From: Winogradskyella vidalii
Lineage (GTDB): Bacteria; Bacteroidota; Bacteroidia; Flavobacteriales; Flavobacteriaceae
NCBI RefSeq assembly: GCF_013403955.1
Contig: NZ_JABFDG010000005.1
Location: forward strand, 186,001 to 250,000
DNA: 64,000 nt
Direction of reading: 5' to 3'
In this document: positions 2,438 to 46,531 of the stretch, in pieces
Layout of the letters: the number at the start of each line of letters is the position of its first letter
Position numbering within the stretch: the stretch's first letter is position 1
The notes under the pieces: model-generated
The model's database searches: none
Told to the model about the DNA's origin: nothing
What the model saw: only the letters and a program-made list of their open reading frames with translations
Position numbers and translations under genes: made by a program

Positions 2438-4069
2438 ATGAAAAATTTAGCACAAAGTAATTATCGTTCTGCACTACAAACGGTAAGAGATTTAAAAGCG
2501 AAATACGGTGACACCTGGATGGCTATTACGCCAGAGAATGCAGCACAAATGATGACGCAAAACAGGTTTAAAACGGGATTAGATATCGCCAAATATACAG
2601 CTGCAATTATGCGTGAAGATATGGCAGCTTATGATGCAGACTCATCAAATTACACACAATCTTTAGGATGCTGGCATGGATTTGTGGCACAACAAAAAAT
2701 GATTGCCGTAAAAAAACATCACAAAACCACACGTAAGCGTTATTTATACCTTTCAGGATGGATGGTTGCTGCTTTGCGTTCTGAATTCGGTCCATTACCC
2801 GATCAGTCCATGCATGAAAAGACCGCAGTTTCAGGATTAATTGAAGAAATTTATGATTTTTTACGTCAAGCAGACGCCATTGAATTAAATGATTTATTTA
2901 GAAGACTTGAAAATGGAGAAGACGTGCAAGATGAAATCGATAATTTTGAAACGCATATAGTACCAATTATCGCAGATATCGATGCTGGTTTTGGAAACGA
3001 AGAAGCAACGTATTTATTAGCAAAGAAAATGATTCAGGCAGGAGCTTGTGCCATTCAAATTGAGAACCAAGTTTCAGATGCCAAGCAATGTGGTCATCAG
3101 GATGGAAAAGTAACCGTGCCTCATGAAGATTTTGTAGCTAAATTAAATGCTGTACGTTACGCATTTTTAGAACTTGGAGTGGATGATGGAATTATTGTAG
3201 CTCGAACAGATTCAGAAGGAGCAAGTTTAACTCAAAAATTACCCGTGAGTCAAGAACCAGGTGATTTAGCGTCTCAATATTTGGCTTTTGTAGAAGCTGA
3301 AGCTGTAAATATTGATGAGGCTAATGAAGATGATGTATTATTGAAACGCGATGGTAAACTAGTGCGCCCAATCCGATTAGCTAATGGTTTGTATAAATTT
3401 AAACCAGGTACTAATATTGATCGTGTGGTATTAGATTGTATTACCAGCTTGCAAAATGGTGCCGATTTATTGTGGATTGAAACCCCTACACCAAATGTAA
3501 AACAGATTGCTCATATGGTGAATCGAATTAGAGCGGTTGTGCCAAATGCTAAATTGGTATATAATAATTCACCGTCATTCAACTGGACTCTAAATTTCCG
3601 TAATCAAATTTTTGATGAAATGCTTGCAGAAGGTGAAAACATGACGGCTTATGATCGCAATAATTTAATGGATGCTCAGTATGATGGTTCGGAATTATGC
3701 CATAGAGCAGATGAAAAAATTAAAACCTTTCAATTAGATGGTGCAAAAGAAGCCGGAATTTTTCATCATCTAATTACGCTACCAACGTATCATACAACAG
3801 CGCTACACATGAACGATTTAACCAAAGGTTATTTTGGTGACGAAGGCATGTTAGCTTATGTAAAGGGCGTGCAACGACAAGAAATTAGAAAAGGTGTGTC
3901 TTGTGTAAAACATCAAAGAATGGCAGGTTCTGATCTTGGAGACGACCATAAATCTTTCTTTGCAGGGGAAAAAGCACTAAAGGCTGGTGGTGAAAATAAT
4001 ACGTCTAATCAATTTGAGGCTGGAACCAAAGTGCCTAAAACAAATGAAAAGTTAAGCGAAGTTGCTTAG
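2438..4069 (+). CDS. aceA: Isocitrate lyase, long form
   Basis: Cleaves isocitrate into succinate and glyoxylate, the first glyoxylate-shunt step. The 543-aa length matches the long form seen in Pseudomonas and Bacteroidota rather than the 430-aa E. coli type. The active-site cysteine is in AKQCGHQDGKV (about 210-220; E. coli type is KKCGH). Other landmarks are PIIADIDAGFGNEEATYLL (Mg2+ site region), IVARTDSEGA and YNNSPSFNW. The start ATG is preceded by A/T-rich sequence with no Shine-Dalgarno, as usual here. It is the second gene of the aceBA operon and is followed by a strong terminator. Confidence 0.96.
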   Translation: MKNLAQSNYRSALQTVRDLKAKYGDTWMAITPENAAQMMTQNRFKTGLDIAKYTAAIMREDMAAYDADSSNYTQSLGCWHGFVAQQKMIAVKKHHKTTRKRYLYLSGWMVAALRSEFGPLPDQSMHEKTAVSGLIEEIYDFLRQADAIELNDLFRRLENGEDVQDEIDNFETHIVPIIADIDAGFGNEEATYLLAKKMIQAGACAIQIENQVSDAKQCGHQDGKVTVPHEDFVAKLNAVRYAFLELGVDDGIIVARTDSEGASLTQKLPVSQEPGDLASQYLAFVEAEAVNIDEANEDDVLLKRDGKLVRPIRLANGLYKFKPGTNIDRVVLDCITSLQNGADLLWIETPTPNVKQIAHMVNRIRAVVPNAKLVYNNSPSFNWTLNFRNQIFDEMLAEGENMTAYDRNNLMDAQYDGSELCHRADEKIKTFQLDGAKEAGIFHHLITLPTYHTTALHMNDLTKGYFGDEGMLAYVKGVQRQEIRKGVSCVKHQRMAGSDLGDDHKSFFAGEKALKAGGENNTSNQFEAGTKVPKTNEKLSEVA

Positions 4070-4088
4070 AATTAATATATCTGAATTG

Positions 4089-4124
4089 AAAAAGCATCTC
4101 TGTATTTATGGAGGTGCTTTTTTT
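4089..4124 (+). terminator. Intrinsic terminator after aceA
   Basis: A 12-bp stem is formed by 4089-4100 (ending AAGCATCTC) and 4111-4122 (GAGGTGCTT...), with one G-U pair, a 10-nt loop and a run of eight T. The A-run on the other side means it could also serve the convergent response-regulator gene. Confidence 0.85.
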
Positions 4125-4131
4125 GTGTTAT

Positions 4132-4797
4132 TTAAATAAGTCCTAAATCTTTCATCTTAGAAACTAAATGTACCGTGTTTTCAGCTTTAAATTTATCACG
4201 TAGTTTATTCAGGCGTTTTTCAATAGAACTTTCACTACTAGGACTGATGTTTTTTTCTTTAAAATAACGACTCACTTCTTTTTGGTCTAAACCTAATGAG
4301 AGTTGTTTTGCTAGCTGAATATCGTAGTCTATAATTTCCAAATCTACTTTTGGACTCAGTGCTTTAGCAATTTGTGATGATAGAAATGTTTTGTTTTTAG
4401 CGACTGACTCTATGGCTTTAGCCAATTCCATAGACCCTTTTCTGTCTTTACAGACATAGGCATTCACTTTAAATTGATTAACCAATTGCCTTACTTTTTG
4501 GAGCTGGTCTTTCATAGAATAGACGATGATGGGCAAGTTTTTGTAATCCTCTCTTAAGGTTGCAATTAAATCTTCGCCAGATGCTATAATACATTCACGG
4601 TGATCAACTTTAAACGATAAATCGGTAATTAATAAATCAAATGGCACTTTGTCGTAGGCGGCTTTTTTAATTTTTAAAAAAGCATCATCGCAATATTGGG
4701 AATTTTGAATATCACTAACACCAAACTGGTTAAGGATGTTTAAAACACTTTTATTAATATCGTCATGATCATCTACTATTAATACTTTTGAAAACAT
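4132..4797 (-). CDS. Response regulator, REC plus LuxR-like HTH
   Basis: Residues 1-125 form a receiver domain: acidic pocket VDDHDD near the N-terminus, phospho-acceptor Asp in LLITDLSF (about residue 59), switch Ser in IIVYSMKD and Lys in YVCKDRKG. The C-terminal 60 residues (from LGLDQKEVSRYF to IEKRLNKLRDKF) form a divergent LuxR/FixJ-like helix-turn-helix. The gene starts 3 nt after the stop of the upstream histidine kinase, so both are made from one mRNA and almost certainly form a cognate pair. Target genes cannot be read from the sequence. Confidence 0.9.
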   Translation of the reverse strand: MFSKVLIVDDHDDINKSVLNILNQFGVSDIQNSQYCDDAFLKIKKAAYDKVPFDLLITDLSFKVDHRECIIASGEDLIATLREDYKNLPIIVYSMKDQLQKVRQLVNQFKVNAYVCKDRKGSMELAKAIESVAKNKTFLSSQIAKALSPKVDLEIIDYDIQLAKQLSLGLDQKEVSRYFKEKNISPSSESSIEKRLNKLRDKFKAENTVHLVSKMKDLGLI

Positions 4798-4800
4798 AGT

Positions 4801-6462
4801 CTAAATTTCTATTATGGATTTAAAACCCTTATTAGGTTCAGAATCAAAGATAATAGACCCATTAATAGCAACAATACGGTTTTCCACATTTCGTAACCCA
4901 GTGCTCTTTTTTATATCACAACCTAAACCATCATCTTTGTAAGTAATGATTACTTTATTAGGTTTATTTTGAAAGCTAATAACAGCAATAGAGGCCTCAC
5001 TGTGTTTTTTCATGTTAATCAATAGTTCTTGTAACACTTTGTAAATTGCCGTTCGCTTTATTTTAGCTAATTTATTCCATTGTATTTTAGAAACATCTCT
5101 TAAAATGACATTAGTGTCAGCGTCTGTATAATTAATAGCTAAGTCATTTAATAGAGTTTTATAATCGCTAGTAACATCTAATTCTCCTAGTTGTTTAGAA
5201 ATATTCCTAGCTTTGCTATAAACCTGTTCAATATTATTTAGAAGGTCATCACTAACATTCGATTCGGTTTGTAGTTTTGTCATAATCTGAAACACATCAT
5301 TTGCAACTTCATCATGTACCACTTTTGATATTTGTGACTCTGTAGCATAAACTTGTTCTATCTTTTCTTTCTTGTGTTTAGATTTTATAATAATATATAA
5401 GGGTATTGATAAAAGCGCAATAAATAAGACTATAAGCCAAGCGACCATTTTTTTTAAGGCTTCTTTTTCTTTTAAAAGTAAAAAAGAATCTGCCCGTTCC
5501 TTTTCTTTATAGTATTCATACTTGTTAGAAGCAAATTGATTTTTATATAATTGAGTGGATTTATCAATACTATCATTCAAAGTTTTATAGCGTATAATTT
5601 CTGCATTTTCATTTAGTGCAATCTTAGCAGCTAATGCATGCATTTCATAGTATTTGTTCTTACTTTCAGTAGCGATTTTTATGGCTTTATCAGCAGCATC
5701 TAAAGCCAGAACTATATTGTTTCGATCACTATAATATTCAGAAAGGTTTAAGTAACTGGTTATAATCCCAGAATGATGATTTTCTTTTAGTCTTATTTCT
5801 AAAGCTTCATTTAAATTAGAGTAAGCTTCAGGGGCGTTAATTTTGGCTTGGGCAAAACCTAAGTTGTCTAAAAGCCTAGCTAATCTAGCTTGAGACTCAT
5901 TTTCTCTTGAGTACTCAACAACACTGAGAAGGTTTTCTACGGCTTTTTTGTAGTCTTTGTTTTTGGCGTAAGTACTAGCAAGATTTTTTATACCAGTGTT
6001 TTTATATGCTGTAGTTTCTGCATTACTGATTACTTTTTTAAAATACCGAATGGCAACATCATGATTATCTAATTTTTTATTAATGATGCCCAAGTGATTG
6101 TACAGACCAACTCTAGATTCATTTTTTAATTTATGATTTTCTTTAAGATTGTCTAGAAGAGTTAGAGCTTCAATAGCATAGTTTTCACTTTCGTAAAACA
6201 AACTTTTCTTTCTTAAGGCAATAGAAATCAACCTTAAATCAGAAATAGCGCCCATGGTATCCGCTTTTTTTAATTTTTGGGCTTTAGAATTCAAGTAATA
6301 ATTATAACCAGTGACTAAATCGGTATAATTTTTTGGCTTTAAAATTAATTCTCTGTAATTAAGTGTATCTGTAGTGTTTTGAGCAGAAATACTTGGGGTA
6401 TAATATAGAAATTGTAGTACAAAACAAAAAAATAAGAGGAATGAATTATTAACTGGTTTCAT
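4801..6462 (-). CDS. TPR-containing membrane sensor histidine kinase
   Basis: 553 aa. An N-terminal signal sequence (Phe/Leu-rich, ending SISAQ at about 28) exports a periplasmic domain of tetratricopeptide-like helical repeats (about 60-310). One transmembrane helix follows (MVAWLIVLFIALLSIPLYII, about 345-365). The cytoplasmic kinase core has an H-box in SKVVHDEVANDVF (HisKA_3-like), an N-box in LQELLINMKKHSE, and ATP-binding loops DDGLGCD and GLRNVENRI. This is the Bacteroidota periplasmic-TPR kinase type. It is transcribed with the response regulator below and, upstream, with a tiny lipoprotein. Its start codon lies inside a perfect inverted repeat (see 6435-6468), suggesting translational or attenuation control. 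Confidence 0.9.
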   Translation of the reverse strand: MKPVNNSFLLFFCFVLQFLYYTPSISAQNTTDTLNYRELILKPKNYTDLVTGYNYYLNSKAQKLKKADTMGAISDLRLISIALRKKSLFYESENYAIEALTLLDNLKENHKLKNESRVGLYNHLGIINKKLDNHDVAIRYFKKVISNAETTAYKNTGIKNLASTYAKNKDYKKAVENLLSVVEYSRENESQARLARLLDNLGFAQAKINAPEAYSNLNEALEIRLKENHHSGIITSYLNLSEYYSDRNNIVLALDAADKAIKIATESKNKYYEMHALAAKIALNENAEIIRYKTLNDSIDKSTQLYKNQFASNKYEYYKEKERADSFLLLKEKEALKKMVAWLIVLFIALLSIPLYIIIKSKHKKEKIEQVYATESQISKVVHDEVANDVFQIMTKLQTESNVSDDLLNNIEQVYSKARNISKQLGELDVTSDYKTLLNDLAINYTDADTNVILRDVSKIQWNKLAKIKRTAIYKVLQELLINMKKHSEASIAVISFQNKPNKVIITYKDDGLGCDIKKSTGLRNVENRIVAINGSIIFDSEPNKGFKSIIEI

Positions 6463-6468
6463 TCCTCT
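6421..6468 (-). promoter_or_regulatory. Hairpin that encloses the kinase start codon, followed by a U-rich tract
   Basis: On the mRNA strand AGAGGAATGAA (6468-6458) and TTCATTCCTCT (6445-6435) are perfect 11-bp inverted arms separated by 12 nt. The first arm holds both a purine-rich AGAGGA and the kinase ATG. After the second arm the mRNA reads TATTTTTTTGTTTT. The structure therefore resembles an intrinsic terminator placed over the initiation site, as in attenuators. The T-rich codons also encode Phe residues of the signal peptide, so the U-tract may be partly coincidental. Confidence 0.5.
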
Positions 6469-6470
6469 AA

Positions 6471-6494
6471 AATAATAACAAAATAGTTATTATT
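6471..6494 (-). other. A/U hairpin at the end of the lipoprotein gene
   Basis: AATAATAAC (6471-6479) and GTTATTATT (6486-6494) are perfect 9-bp inverted arms with a 6-nt loop, spanning the stop codon of the 55-aa lipoprotein gene, immediately upstream of the hairpin over the kinase start. The pair could act together in setting the ratio of lipoprotein to kinase. Confidence 0.35.
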
Positions 6495-6657
6495 CATTAT
6501 TTTCAGTAGAAGGATTTTTAATTTCTGGAGGAGGTAGATCTTCTTCAGAATCACAACATGCTTGAGGTGTTTCTTCGTCTACTATGAGTTCAGGATTACA
6601 AGATAAAAAGGTGATATTAAGGAAAATCATTAATAATATTAGATATATATTCTTCAT
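6490..6657 (-). CDS. 55-aa lipoprotein heading the two-component operon
   Basis: A short ORF found by reading the minus strand: ATG at 6657, TAA at 6490-6492. The product begins MKNIYLILLMIFLNITFL and reaches a lipobox with Cys20 (FLSC-NP), so a mature peptide of about 36 residues would be anchored by a lipid. The mature part is acidic and proline-rich with a vicinal Cys pair (QACCDSEED, LPPPE). It ends 27 bp before the kinase start on the same strand. The real signal peptide and lipobox argue that it is translated. Inference: it may be a ligand or inhibitor of the periplasmic TPR domain of the kinase. No family recognised. Confidence 0.7.
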   Translation of the reverse strand: MKNIYLILLMIFLNITFLSCNPELIVDEETPQACCDSEEDLPPPEIKNPSTENNE

Positions 6658-7010
6658 TTTATATATTTTTAAAATTTGACATAAGTGTTGCTGTCTGAGT
6701 TATTTCAGAAGCTTAGTTGCTTAGCAACACCATTTAAATTTGAAGTGGGTTTTCTTCGATGGGAAGTGTGGCATACAGAAGTAAAAACAGCGTTATAACT
6801 TCCCTTGTAGTAACACTGTTTTACACTGTAGCTAACACATAGAATTGTATTCGTAAACCTTATTACGCCTAAGGTGGTTAACAATTCTAGAGCGAAAGAA
6901 TGAAGATATTTATGGAGTCGATGGAAATTCAATGGAAATGTTTTGGAAAAGAAATTCCTTTATAATTCCAATGAATATGAGTAACATTTAATAGTTTTAA
7001 ATCTGACCTA
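6658..7010. other. 353-bp intergenic region with a structured leader
   Basis: This spacer separates the minus-strand lipoprotein operon from the plus-strand gene at 7011. AGTGTTGCT-like sequence at 6685-6692 (GTGTTGCT) is complementary to AGCAACAC at 6723-6730, and inside it TCTGA (6694-6698) pairs with TCAGA (6705-6709). GTTGC-TTA-GCAAC at 6716-6728 is a competing small hairpin. These lie 28-75 nt upstream of the lipoprotein start. A 75-codon minus-strand frame at 6705-6932 has no signal peptide or family feature and is not called. Nothing else recognised. Confidence 0.35.
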
Positions 7011-7688
7011 ATGCACAAAAAATTACTTATAAAAGCTTTTAAAAAAGCGAAAGGAGAAATTGGCACTGATAAAGTTTCCCCAAGGGCTCAGCACCTTTCT
7101 GATATTATTTTAGAATTTTCTAAAGAACCTTATGGGGAAAGAATTCTTAGAGAAAAATTTAATGCTTTAAATAAAGCAGACGATAAAAATGTAAGGTTAA
7201 AGAAACACGCTGAAGAAGCTTTAAGTAACTATTTGGGCTACGAAAAATTTACTGATTTTGTAAATGAAAACAGTGATGAAGAAACTGTGAAAGTCAATAA
7301 ACTGAAACGATTACTAAATTACAAAACAGCAATCCTACTTGGCGTCATAGTCATTATAAGTGCATTCACCTATAATTCAACGACAAAACAACGTTGGATG
7401 GTATGGAAAGATAATCATTATATTGAAGTGGATTTTGACATTAAAGCTTATGAATTAAATAAGCTTAAATTGTACAAAGAAGAGCGAATAAAATATTTTT
7501 ATAAAATAAACGCCAATTGTGATACGAAATATTTTAACGAAAATGGAAGTGTAAAGGTTTGGTATGGTAAAAACAAGGCAAAAAAAATTGAGTGTTTTAC
7601 AGCTTTAGGATTACATCCCGAAACTGGTAAAACACTCAAGCCAATCACATCTTATATGATTAAAAAGTATTTATGTGATTCTTATTAA
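7011..7688 (+). CDS. Conserved flavobacterial single-pass membrane protein
   Basis: 225 aa, function unknown. Residues 1-100 are charged and predicted cytoplasmic, with many Lys and a YLGYEKFTDFV segment. A single membrane helix lies at about 104-120 (AILLGVIVIISAFTY). The rest follows the membrane and has a characteristic pattern beginning QRWMVWKDNHYIEVDFD and ending HPETGKTLKPITSYMIKKYL. I recognise this tail as recurring in Flavobacteriaceae hypothetical proteins, but no function is assigned. It stands alone, with the next gene (an outer-membrane barrel) converging 23 bp downstream. Confidence 0.75.
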   Translation: MHKKLLIKAFKKAKGEIGTDKVSPRAQHLSDIILEFSKEPYGERILREKFNALNKADDKNVRLKKHAEEALSNYLGYEKFTDFVNENSDEETVKVNKLKRLLNYKTAILLGVIVIISAFTYNSTTKQRWMVWKDNHYIEVDFDIKAYELNKLKLYKEERIKYFYKINANCDTKYFNENGSVKVWYGKNKAKKIECFTALGLHPETGKTLKPITSYMIKKYLCDSY

Positions 7689-7711
7689 AACCGCATTGAG
7701 TTCGACTAGGT

Positions 7712-10231
7712 TTAGCCTTCAAACTCCATGTCATCTCCGCCGCCATTGTCACTACCACGTCTAGAATTTTCACGTTTACTTAGTTGCTGATTAAACCTGT
7801 AAATTAATGATAGGTTTACTTGACGTTGTCTCCATTGGAATTCAGAATAGCGTTCAAAAAATTCTGTAGTGGTTGTAGATTGACGTTTTCTAGAGTTCAG
7901 TAAGTCTCTAACATTTGCAGAAACGGTAAGGCTATTGTTTTTTATTTTAACCTCCTTACTGAAGGCTAAATCAATAGATAATACACCGTCTGTGTCAGAC
8001 TGAGCATCTTGTACAGCTCCTCTATAAGAAGCGTTAGTTTGCCAATCTATTTCCCATGGTAATGATATTTTTGAGCTAAATCGTGCAAACCAACTTGTAT
8101 TTTTAGCACTATAATCTATATCGTTAAATTCTCCTTCAGTATCAAACTGAAAGAAATTAAAACTTGAATTTAGTCGTAACCATTTATTTGGGGTGTATAA
8201 AAAACCTAATTCTGCACCCGTACGTTTATTTGTTGAAAGGTTAATTGGTATGGTTCTAATAATGTCTATGCCATCAGAAGTTTGTAGTCCTGTATTTTCC
8301 TCAACACGCTCAAAAGAATCAGTTTCATGTTGGTAATATACAGAGGTAGTTAATGTAAATTTATCCCAACGTTTTAAATACCCTAAATCAAATGTACTAG
8401 AGTAAGCTGGATCTAAATCAGGGTTTCCTTGAAATATACTAGTTCTACTAGATCGGCTTGGGAATGGATTAATATACCAACCACGAGGACGATTTATTCT
8501 TCTATTAAAACCAACGGTAATACTTTCTTCGCTGTCAGATTCAGAACCGTTTATGTTGTATATTAGGTTTACGGTTGGGAAAAGTCCGAGGTAATTCTTG
8601 TCAAAATCTGCATTAAACGCTTCTTCTGTAAACTCTGAAGCGATACTTCCTTTAAGCTGTGTATGCTCTAATCTCAATCCTAATAAAAAGGAAAACTCAC
8701 CAAATTTAGTGCCGTATTGACTGTAAAGTGCGTTGACATTTTCATCATAATCGAAAATATTACTAACATCATCATTAACTTCTAAATTACCGTTATCTAA
8801 GTTTTCTTGATCTAAGCGGTAATCAGTAATTTCATTCTCAAAATTTCCTCTATATCCTGCTTCAAATCTAGCATTTTCACCTAAAGGTAAAACATAATCT
8901 GCCTGAAATAAAAATTCTTTTTTATCCTCTGTTGTAAATTCTTGTTCTCTTTGAAATGGCTCTGGATTGGTTTGGTCGCTGAAAAGATAATCTTCATTTA
9001 GATTGGTAAAGCCTTCTTCGTTATCATTTTCATATTGAAAATCAACTGTTAATTTATGATCGCTATCATCTGAAAAACGCTTAACGTAATTCAATGCAAT
9101 TTGATAACTATTGTCTTCTTCGGTTTCTTTTTCTCTTCTAAGGGTTTCTTCAACAATGGTATTGTTATTAAAGCGTTCACTAGAGTTTAATGAAATGTCT
9201 GCATCACTACCAAGTCTATAAAATAAACTACCCGTTATAGAAGAAGACTCGTCAATAAAATACTCCATACCAATATTAGCGTTGTAATTTCGATTTAAGC
9301 GTTCTACTTCCTGATCCTCTACAATTCTACGATATTCAGGGGTGATGGTTTGGCCTTCTTCAATTCTATCAAAATAAGTGACATCACTATAGCTAGTTCT
9401 TGGAGCATCAAAATAGCGCCATCCAAAATTTGAAAATAAATTGTACTTTTCTGTTCGGTAGTTTAATGCAGCAGATAAACCAACGTTATCTGGATTACCA
9501 GCCGTTAAATTAATAGAACCGTTGAAGCCTAATGTTTCTTTTTGTCTTAGTATAATATTTAAAATTCCAGCCGTACCTTCTGCATCGTACCTTGCAGATG
9601 GAGAGGTGATTACCTCTACACGTTCAATAGCTTCTGCAGGTAACTGACTTAATACATTACTATCACCAAAACCTGCCATTGCAGAAGGTTTACCGTTAAT
9701 TAGTATACGTACATTTTCGTTTCCTCTTAAGCTTATAGCGCCTTCTACATCTACAGCAACAGAAGGTACATTGTTTAAAGCATCACTAACGGTTCCGCCT
9801 GCAGTGGTTAAATCTTGCCCGATGTTATATACTTTTTTATCTAATTTTATTTCTACTGTGGTACGTTCTGCAACGACCATAACTTCATTTAAAGTGGAAA
9901 CATCTAAGGCTAGATTGATAACGCCTAAATTAGTGTCTTTTGAGATTTTTTGTTCAGGGAAGTGCTTCGTGGTGTAAGAAATATATTCCACGGATATCAT
10001 ATAAGCTCCTGCGGGAACTTCTACTTCAAAATTTCCTTTGGTATCTGTAACGCCACCAGTAACAACTCTATCATTTTCTTTAGTTTTAACAACTACTGTA
10101 GCATATTCAAGAGGAATATTAGTGTCTTCTTCTAAAACAGTACCTTTTATTTTTACGTCGTTTTGAGCATGAGAAAAAGAAAGGCAAAAGATTAATAATA
10201 AAAGCGTTGTAATAGCGGGTAATTTCATCAC
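7712..10231 (-). CDS. Outer-membrane beta-barrel receptor (TonB-dependent-receptor-like, OMP_b-brl_3 type)
   Basis: 839 aa. A signal peptide ends SFSHAQ (about 23). Residues 27-110 are a CarboxypepD_reg-like domain (IKGTVLEEDTNIPLEYATVVV). A plug-like domain follows (about 125-235: TTAGGTVSDALNNVPSVAVD, ISLRGNENVRILINGKPSA, AEGTAGILNIILRQK). The remainder is an outer-membrane beta-barrel with alternating aromatic strands. It ends in a Gly/Asp-rich tail (GGGDDMEFEG) rather than a classic terminal Phe strand. Likely role is uptake or binding at the outer membrane; the substrate cannot be told. It has its own promoter, and an ArsC-like/helical protein pair lies upstream. Confidence 0.9.
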   Translation of the reverse strand: MMKLPAITTLLLLIFCLSFSHAQNDVKIKGTVLEEDTNIPLEYATVVVKTKENDRVVTGGVTDTKGNFEVEVPAGAYMISVEYISYTTKHFPEQKISKDTNLGVINLALDVSTLNEVMVVAERTTVEIKLDKKVYNIGQDLTTAGGTVSDALNNVPSVAVDVEGAISLRGNENVRILINGKPSAMAGFGDSNVLSQLPAEAIERVEVITSPSARYDAEGTAGILNIILRQKETLGFNGSINLTAGNPDNVGLSAALNYRTEKYNLFSNFGWRYFDAPRTSYSDVTYFDRIEEGQTITPEYRRIVEDQEVERLNRNYNANIGMEYFIDESSSITGSLFYRLGSDADISLNSSERFNNNTIVEETLRREKETEEDNSYQIALNYVKRFSDDSDHKLTVDFQYENDNEEGFTNLNEDYLFSDQTNPEPFQREQEFTTEDKKEFLFQADYVLPLGENARFEAGYRGNFENEITDYRLDQENLDNGNLEVNDDVSNIFDYDENVNALYSQYGTKFGEFSFLLGLRLEHTQLKGSIASEFTEEAFNADFDKNYLGLFPTVNLIYNINGSESDSEESITVGFNRRINRPRGWYINPFPSRSSRTSIFQGNPDLDPAYSSTFDLGYLKRWDKFTLTTSVYYQHETDSFERVEENTGLQTSDGIDIIRTIPINLSTNKRTGAELGFLYTPNKWLRLNSSFNFFQFDTEGEFNDIDYSAKNTSWFARFSSKISLPWEIDWQTNASYRGAVQDAQSDTDGVLSIDLAFSKEVKIKNNSLTVSANVRDLLNSRKRQSTTTTEFFERYSEFQWRQRQVNLSLIYRFNQQLSKRENSRRGSDNGGGDDMEFEG

Positions 10232-18898: not shown

Positions 18899-18941
18899 AA
18901 AAAAACGATTATCATATTTTATAATGATAATCGTTTTTTTT
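18899..18941. terminator. Strong bidirectional terminator
   Basis: The arm at 18899-18915 (A-run, then CGATTATCAT) pairs perfectly over 17 bp with 18924-18940 (ATGATAATCG, then T-run). It has A-runs and T-runs on both sides, so it serves both the acyltransferase gene and the convergent GNAT gene ending at 18972. Confidence 0.9.
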
Positions 18942-36175: not shown

Positions 36176-36219
36176 AAAAAGCGACCTTTAAATGATGTTT
36201 TTAAAGGTCGCTTTTTTTT
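36176..36219. terminator. Bidirectional terminator after bcp
   Basis: GCGACCTTTAAA (36181-36192) pairs with TTTAAAGGTCGC (36200-36211), flanked by five A and eight T that extend the stem. It serves bcp and the convergent gene ending at 36237. Confidence 0.93.
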
Positions 36220-46490: not shown

Positions 46491-46531
46491 AAAAAAAGCT
46501 GATAAACCTAAATAGTTTATCAGCTTTTTTT
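46491..46531. terminator. Bidirectional terminator after the M61 peptidase
   Basis: The 17-nt arm 46491-46507 (A-run, GCTGATAAAC) pairs perfectly with 46515-46531 (GTTTATCAGC, T-run). It lies 8 bp from the end of the convergent kinase gene. Confidence 0.93.

Follow-up and report, generated by a model that had tools for sequence, protein, structure and literature searches.

Organization of the locus

The 64-kb window (the whole stretch of DNA analysed here) contains a locus on its minus strand, in which three TTTCC repeats, a structured leader RNA, a small lipoprotein gene, a hairpin with a T-run, the gene for a TPR sensor kinase and a response regulator gene follow one another in that order (Table 1). 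The kinase ATG (6462-6460) sits within the 5' arm of the hairpin. A gene for a 225-aa protein lies upstream in divergent orientation (7011-7688, plus strand); its product has a membrane span by eye and matches no Pfam or NCBIfam family.

Table 1. Features of the lipoprotein-kinase locus, in window coordinates
Feature	Position	Strand	Remarks
Sensor kinase gene	4801..6462	-	Signal peptide and membrane span by eye; TPR domain and HATPase_c by Pfam
Response regulator gene	4132..4797	-	Receiver domain by Pfam; LuxR-like C-terminus by eye
Small lipoprotein gene (55 aa)	6490..6657	-	Cys-Cys and proline-containing tail
Structured leader RNA (216 nt)	6675..6890	-	5' of the lipoprotein gene; nine helices, two pseudoknots
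Three TTTCC repeats	6923..6949	-	11 bp spacing, 5' of the leader; possible regulator site, function inferred
Hairpin	6435..6468	-	5' arm AGAGGAATGAA (6468-6458), loop 6457-6446, 3' arm TTCATTCCTCT (6445-6435)
T-run TATTTTTTTG	6425..6434	-	After the 3' arm; doubles as Leu/Phe codons of the kinase signal peptide
Promoter -7-like box TATTTTAG	6467..6474	-	Predicted; 12 to 5 bases before the kinase ATG
Predicted kinase transcription start	6462	-	A of the ATG; spacing from PMC9723704 and PMC6847099

The hairpin at the kinase start

A preliminary description of this DNA had reported perfect 11-bp arms around a 12-nt loop, with the kinase ATG enclosed and a T-run behind, and all of this is confirmed on the minus strand, as is its remark that phenylalanine codons of the signal peptide contribute to the T-run. 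The purine-rich AGAGGA to which it drew attention is present in the outer half of the 5' arm; because this motif lies directly against the kinase ATG, it offers no usable Shine-Dalgarno site. RNA from 6415-6500 folds at -21 kcal/mol (z -5.2), and none of 200 shuffles folds as well. When the 64 kb are scanned for perfect 11-bp stems with a loop of 3-16 and at least six T in the nine following bases, seven strand-sites at four places are found, and the same scan returns no match in ten block-shuffled windows. The kinase hairpin is the only one of the four to hold a start codon. The other three (18901-18938, 36178-36214 and 46493-46529) are two-way terminators that serve both strands and lie 12-34 nt past stop codons.

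Conservation of the hairpin as RNA

All 68 genomes of the genus have some kinase match at E 0.001, 32 of them have one below 1e-70 (33 places), and 118 of 299 genomes of the family match the kinase at E 1e-30. The working set comprises 98 kinase junctions. The genus supplied 33 of them and the family 65, the latter picked by eye as having a match that reaches the N-terminal part of the kinase, with partial matches and longer kinases of about 600-700 aa left out. Thirteen of the 98 have no resemblance at the junction and were scored as hairpin-less, which leaves 85 in the alignment (A1). A small lipoprotein gene precedes the kinase in 59 of the 98 orthologues (53 recognized by pattern and six by HMM). 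These lipoproteins are mostly about 47-64 aa long, usually with Cys-Cys and a proline-rich tail, and belong to no Pfam family; our guess is that they may interact with the periplasmic TPR sensor, as a partner or as its ligand.

The hairpin follows the lipoprotein gene. An eight-pair core stem, which includes the three pairs of the AUG, occurs in 58 of the 59 loci with the lipoprotein and in eight of the 39 without it (Fisher 5.5e-17, uncorrected for ancestry). The sole exception among the 59 is a locus with a doubtful lipoprotein (L025). The outcome that the preliminary description would have taken as refuting, orthologues that keep the protein but lose the pairing, is thus absent in 58 of the 59 loci with the lipoprotein and present in 31 of the 39 that lack it. 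On a tree of 56 kinases, the lipoprotein state changes 13 times and the hairpin state eight times, with five changes of the two falling on the same branches, a number reached in 19 of 500 shuffles, which lends modest support to the link. An exact-pattern search of 60 relatives matches five genomes, each at the kinase locus; the window itself fails the exact pattern, its tail beginning with TA.

Comparison of the loci indicates that the paired RNA is what has been kept. Seven of 12 pairs have changes on both sides among the 85 junctions, and cells with both-side changes number 19 against 8.2 in shuffles (none of 500 reaches 19) and 5-16 in slid registers, the narrower margin. Paired cells amount to 84.1% against 82.7% in column shuffles (none of 500 as high) and 46-62% in slid registers; the margin over column shuffles is small because the arms vary little. 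Behind the stem, 55 of the 59 lipoprotein-bearing loci have at least seven T in A1 columns 61-69, a span that starts with the final base of the arm. The codons of the 3' arm in these loci are nearly invariant: leucine is CTC in 55/55 against 5% further on in the gene, phenylalanine is TTC in 54/55 against 19%, and serine is TCA in 50/53 against 18%. Together, the paired changes and this extreme codon choice point to selection on RNA. An alternative without any function as RNA, an inverted DNA repeat to which the response regulator binds, would fit the almost constant arm spacing and the DNA-binding look of the regulator. It is nevertheless highly improbable given that departures from the eight core pairs in the 59 loci consist of 13 G-U cells and one mismatch in 472 cells, that the T-run occurs on one strand only (the opposite tail is AAAATAATAACA), and that pairing is kept in a second genus with wholly different sequence.

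An A/U hairpin that had been noted just upstream (6471-6494) is a local feature. The region from -40 to -7 does fold here at -7.7 kcal/mol, but it averages -2.6 kcal/mol in the 59 lipoprotein-bearing loci, against -1.8 for their shuffles, and 29% of these loci reach -3 kcal/mol; with such weak folds in relatives, it was rejected as a conserved element.

A promoter-like box before the kinase

In 87 of 98 orthologues, the motif TANNTTWG has its first base exactly 12 bases ahead of the kinase ATG. These 87 have A or T at the seventh place, and the strict form TANNTTTG occurs in 23 of the 98. In the window, one of 46 long open reading frames has the box at -12, and this is the kinase gene itself. 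The box is conserved apart from the hairpin: it stands at -12 in 22 of the 31 loci that have neither lipoprotein nor hairpin, and conservation of the four bases preceding the ATG is lower there. In F. psychrophilum, the sigma-A box TANNTTTG occupies positions -12 to -5 relative to the transcription start (PMC9723704); F. johnsoniae promoters share this box spacing and have little sign of a -33 element (PMC6847099). No strong -33 signal was seen before the kinase orthologues. If the box is a promoter at the published spacing, transcription would start at the A of the AUG, and the kinase mRNA would begin there without the outer 5' arm. Averaged over the 59 loci, RNA from -6 to +30 folds at -13.5 kcal/mol and RNA from +1 to +30 at -0.9.

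Leaderless mRNAs are a minority (5.5% in F. psychrophilum; PMC9723704), which weighs against such a start. The B. thetaiotaomicron messages whose 5' UTRs are shorter than 10 nt include two for sensor kinases (PMC7366714). The kinase box resembles the promoters of such messages in having the motif at exactly the expected distance. It differs from them in two respects. Position -6 is mostly A (66%), with C in its place in the second genus; the near-constant base at this position of F. johnsoniae promoters is T (PMC6847099), a mismatch that counts against the promoter reading. In addition, the bases between the kinase box and the ATG double as a terminator arm.

A second genus and stand-alone terminators

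In a second genus (g128), all 11 loci have the order leader, small exported protein, hairpin and kinase. The hairpins are of quite different sequence, for example CGGGAAATG..CATTTCCCG or CGGGGAAAGTA..TACGATCCCCG. The small proteins are without Cys-Cys, and that of L143 has, by eye, no lipoprotein cysteine; T-runs are weak in L141 and L143. The box, here TANNTTCG, ends in the CG that opens the 5' arm and lies at -12 in six loci and at -23/-24 in five, so that the constant relation is that of box to hairpin rather than that of hairpin to start codon. In five of the 11 loci the predicted transcription start falls 11-12 nt before the ATG, and the message would therefore not always be leaderless. 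The start codon lies outside the 5' arm in five of the 11 with the box-hairpin relation unchanged, which argues that the hairpin is not built around the start codon.

This bears on the sequestered initiation site proposed in the preliminary description; on this view, the hairpin would mainly lower kinase translation from a long transcript. The AUG is in the paired arm in 58 of the 59 loci, initiation in F. johnsoniae tends to be lower where the RNA is structured around the start codon (PMC6847099), and sequestration would hold for read-through RNA. As the main function it is very unlikely: it does not need the conserved T-run, it does not account for the five second-genus loci with the start codon outside the arm, and a non-coding copy of the hairpin exists.

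That copy belongs to one of two genomes (G174 and G327) in which the leader and lipoprotein gene lie away from the kinase, and in both a stand-alone terminator follows the lipoprotein gene. The terminator of G327 has the near-familiar sequence GAGGAATGA..TTATTCCTC followed by nine T, with no box, and is non-coding, since translation from its ATG would meet a stop after three codons. The kinases of these genomes (L054 and L050) have no such hairpin. L147, which comes from a different family within the order, has an ordinary terminator after the small protein gene and, separate from it, a box-like sequence ahead of the kinase, perhaps the unmerged arrangement of the two elements. In the named Flavobacterium loci L158, L159 and L161, a box-like sequence is kept four bases before the ATG and no such hairpin is seen by eye.

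The separation in L147 would also suit a plain terminator that overlaps the kinase box and start codon merely through compaction and leaves the kinase to be expressed mainly by readthrough. We regard this as unlikely, as the box persists in loci without hairpin and lipoprotein, which indicates a role of its own, and as the register of box to hairpin is equal in two unrelated sequence types.

The leader RNA and upstream repeats

The leader is itself a conserved structure. Nine helices can be drawn, two of which cross others and form pseudoknots. Counts rest on an alignment (A2) of 27 of 58 leaders picked as alignable by eye; a 50-leader alignment (A3) was also made. In A2, 89.2% of cells pair against 38-47% in slid registers, a control that favours the helices by construction because the alignment on which they were drawn by eye is also the one used for counting. 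Both-side changes occur in 39 of 55 pairs and in 97 cells, against 24.3 in shuffles (0 of 500) and 21-42 in slid registers. RNAalifold recovers two helices only. A covariance model of the 5' part of the leader (R1) finds 52 of the 59 lipoprotein-bearing loci at E 0.01, namely each of the 27 from which it was built and 25 of the remaining 32, and none of the 39 loci without the lipoprotein, even at E 1. Under strict filters it has a single match apiece in 33 of 299 genomes of the family and in 14 of 246 genomes of the order. A gene resembling the divergent 225-aa gene adjoins the leader even where the kinase is elsewhere (L125 and L136; also L126).

Searches of the leader against Rfam gave no match up to E 1 (window positions 4000-8000 and loci of six relatives); one weak hit was returned by each, both outside the leader and below the gathering score. 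In the sections consulted, a paper that lists 64 structured 5' regions in F. psychrophilum does not name the leader RNA (PMC9723704), and the main text of a report on new RNAs in 50 genomes (PMC11109978) is free, by word search, of Flavobacteri-, Bacteroid-, lipoprotein and histidine kinase. A literature search that covered few subscription journals brought up, among its top-ranked papers, no account of this RNA and none of a terminator that overlaps a leaderless start.

Our guess from its layout is that the TTTCC array is a site for the regulator. If this is right, the lipoprotein unit would be self-activated and the terminator would keep the loop out of the regulator genes. Some relatives (L006, L013, L062, L070, L076 and L088) have TGTCA repeats in place of TTTCC, as if the regulator's target had changed. 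A search of the organism's own genome for the triple array gives one exact match, which is the leader promoter, and one with a mismatch elsewhere; the reversed control gives as many, and no wider TTTCC regulon was found.

A highly structured leader before the lipoprotein unit, together with a start codon within the 5' arm, also brings to mind a regulated attenuator, in line with the attenuator-like hairpin of the preliminary description. The terminator would then be switched off under some condition, and the kinase would track lipoprotein expression. A protein could act as the switch, as could a ribosome that initiates at the AUG while the 3' arm is still unmade, or something that happens within the leader RNA. 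Most of the lipoproteins contain stretches of proline at which ribosomes could be slowed. Regulation of this kind is not supported by an upstream RNA competitor for the 5' arm: the longest upstream pairing averages 8.3 nt against 8.0 in shuffles, its positions are scattered, and no antiterminator pairing is conserved across relatives. The core stem is moreover intact in 58 of 59 loci, the box for a separate kinase promoter is conserved, and the stand-alone copies end the lipoprotein unit with no kinase behind. The locus resembles known attenuators and riboswitches in combining a structured leader with a terminator near a start codon; unlike them, it has no antiterminator that could be found, its terminator follows a complete small gene and its leader is without an Rfam match. 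A regulated attenuator is thus rather unlikely.

A proposed terminator merged with a putative promoter and start codon

The hairpin probably serves as intrinsic terminator for the transcript that carries the leader RNA and the lipoprotein gene, and is merged with the kinase promoter and start codon. This reading is favoured because a stand-alone terminator ends the lipoprotein unit away from the kinase, and because of the comparative data. The earlier suggestion of a terminator over the first kinase codons accordingly gains support, at the level of sequence comparison, from conserved arms with paired changes, the T-run and the stand-alone copies after the lipoprotein gene. The likeness to an intrinsic (Rho-independent) terminator lies in the stem, loop and T-run just 3' of the lipoprotein gene and in the stand-alone versions in relatives; a stable stem-loop is conserved as RNA (58/59) with the T-run directly behind it (55/59). 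The difference is that the kinase hairpin overlaps the box, predicted transcription start, start codon and first codons of the next gene.

Polymerase arriving from upstream would transcribe both arms and the U-run and then stop, and lipoprotein expression would thereby be kept from running into the kinase and response regulator genes. The kinase would have a separate promoter, the -7 box of which abuts the 5' arm. Its mRNA would start at or near the A of the AUG, so that the outer half of the 5' arm is absent, and, being unable to fold the terminator, would be made in full as a leaderless message. The terminator may well sort transcripts by their origin, stopping upstream polymerase and being unable to form in a message started mid-5' arm, and so shield a two-component system from the highly structured and perhaps self-activated lipoprotein unit that belongs to it, with the two-pseudoknot leader representing an undescribed class; we consider this wider proposal about evenly balanced. 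If it is true, about 50 bases would serve as promoter, transcription start, start codon and terminator together, and the overlap itself would set which messages continue. Such an arrangement would be a simple and portable insulation of neighbouring genes and would be missed wherever annotation assumes that a terminator and a coding start exclude each other. Many Flavobacteriaceae have a conserved structured RNA and a small lipoprotein tied to a sensor kinase.

The presumed purpose, insulation of the regulator genes from the lipoprotein promoter, can be set against the loci that have no lipoprotein. In the eight that keep the hairpin, the nearest upstream gene runs in the same direction in three and the opposite direction in four, with none found in one; in the 31 that lost it, the corresponding numbers are 18, 11 and two. 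Upstream-gene direction therefore has no support as a predictor of hairpin retention in these 39 loci, and loss despite a same-direction upstream gene (18/31) counts against simple insulation, as a general need predicts the reverse. Two of the eight keepers (L051 and L067) have recognizable remnants of a lipoprotein gene. L067 is a second kinase copy in one genome (G072) and retains a lipoprotein-tail remnant beside an intact core stem.
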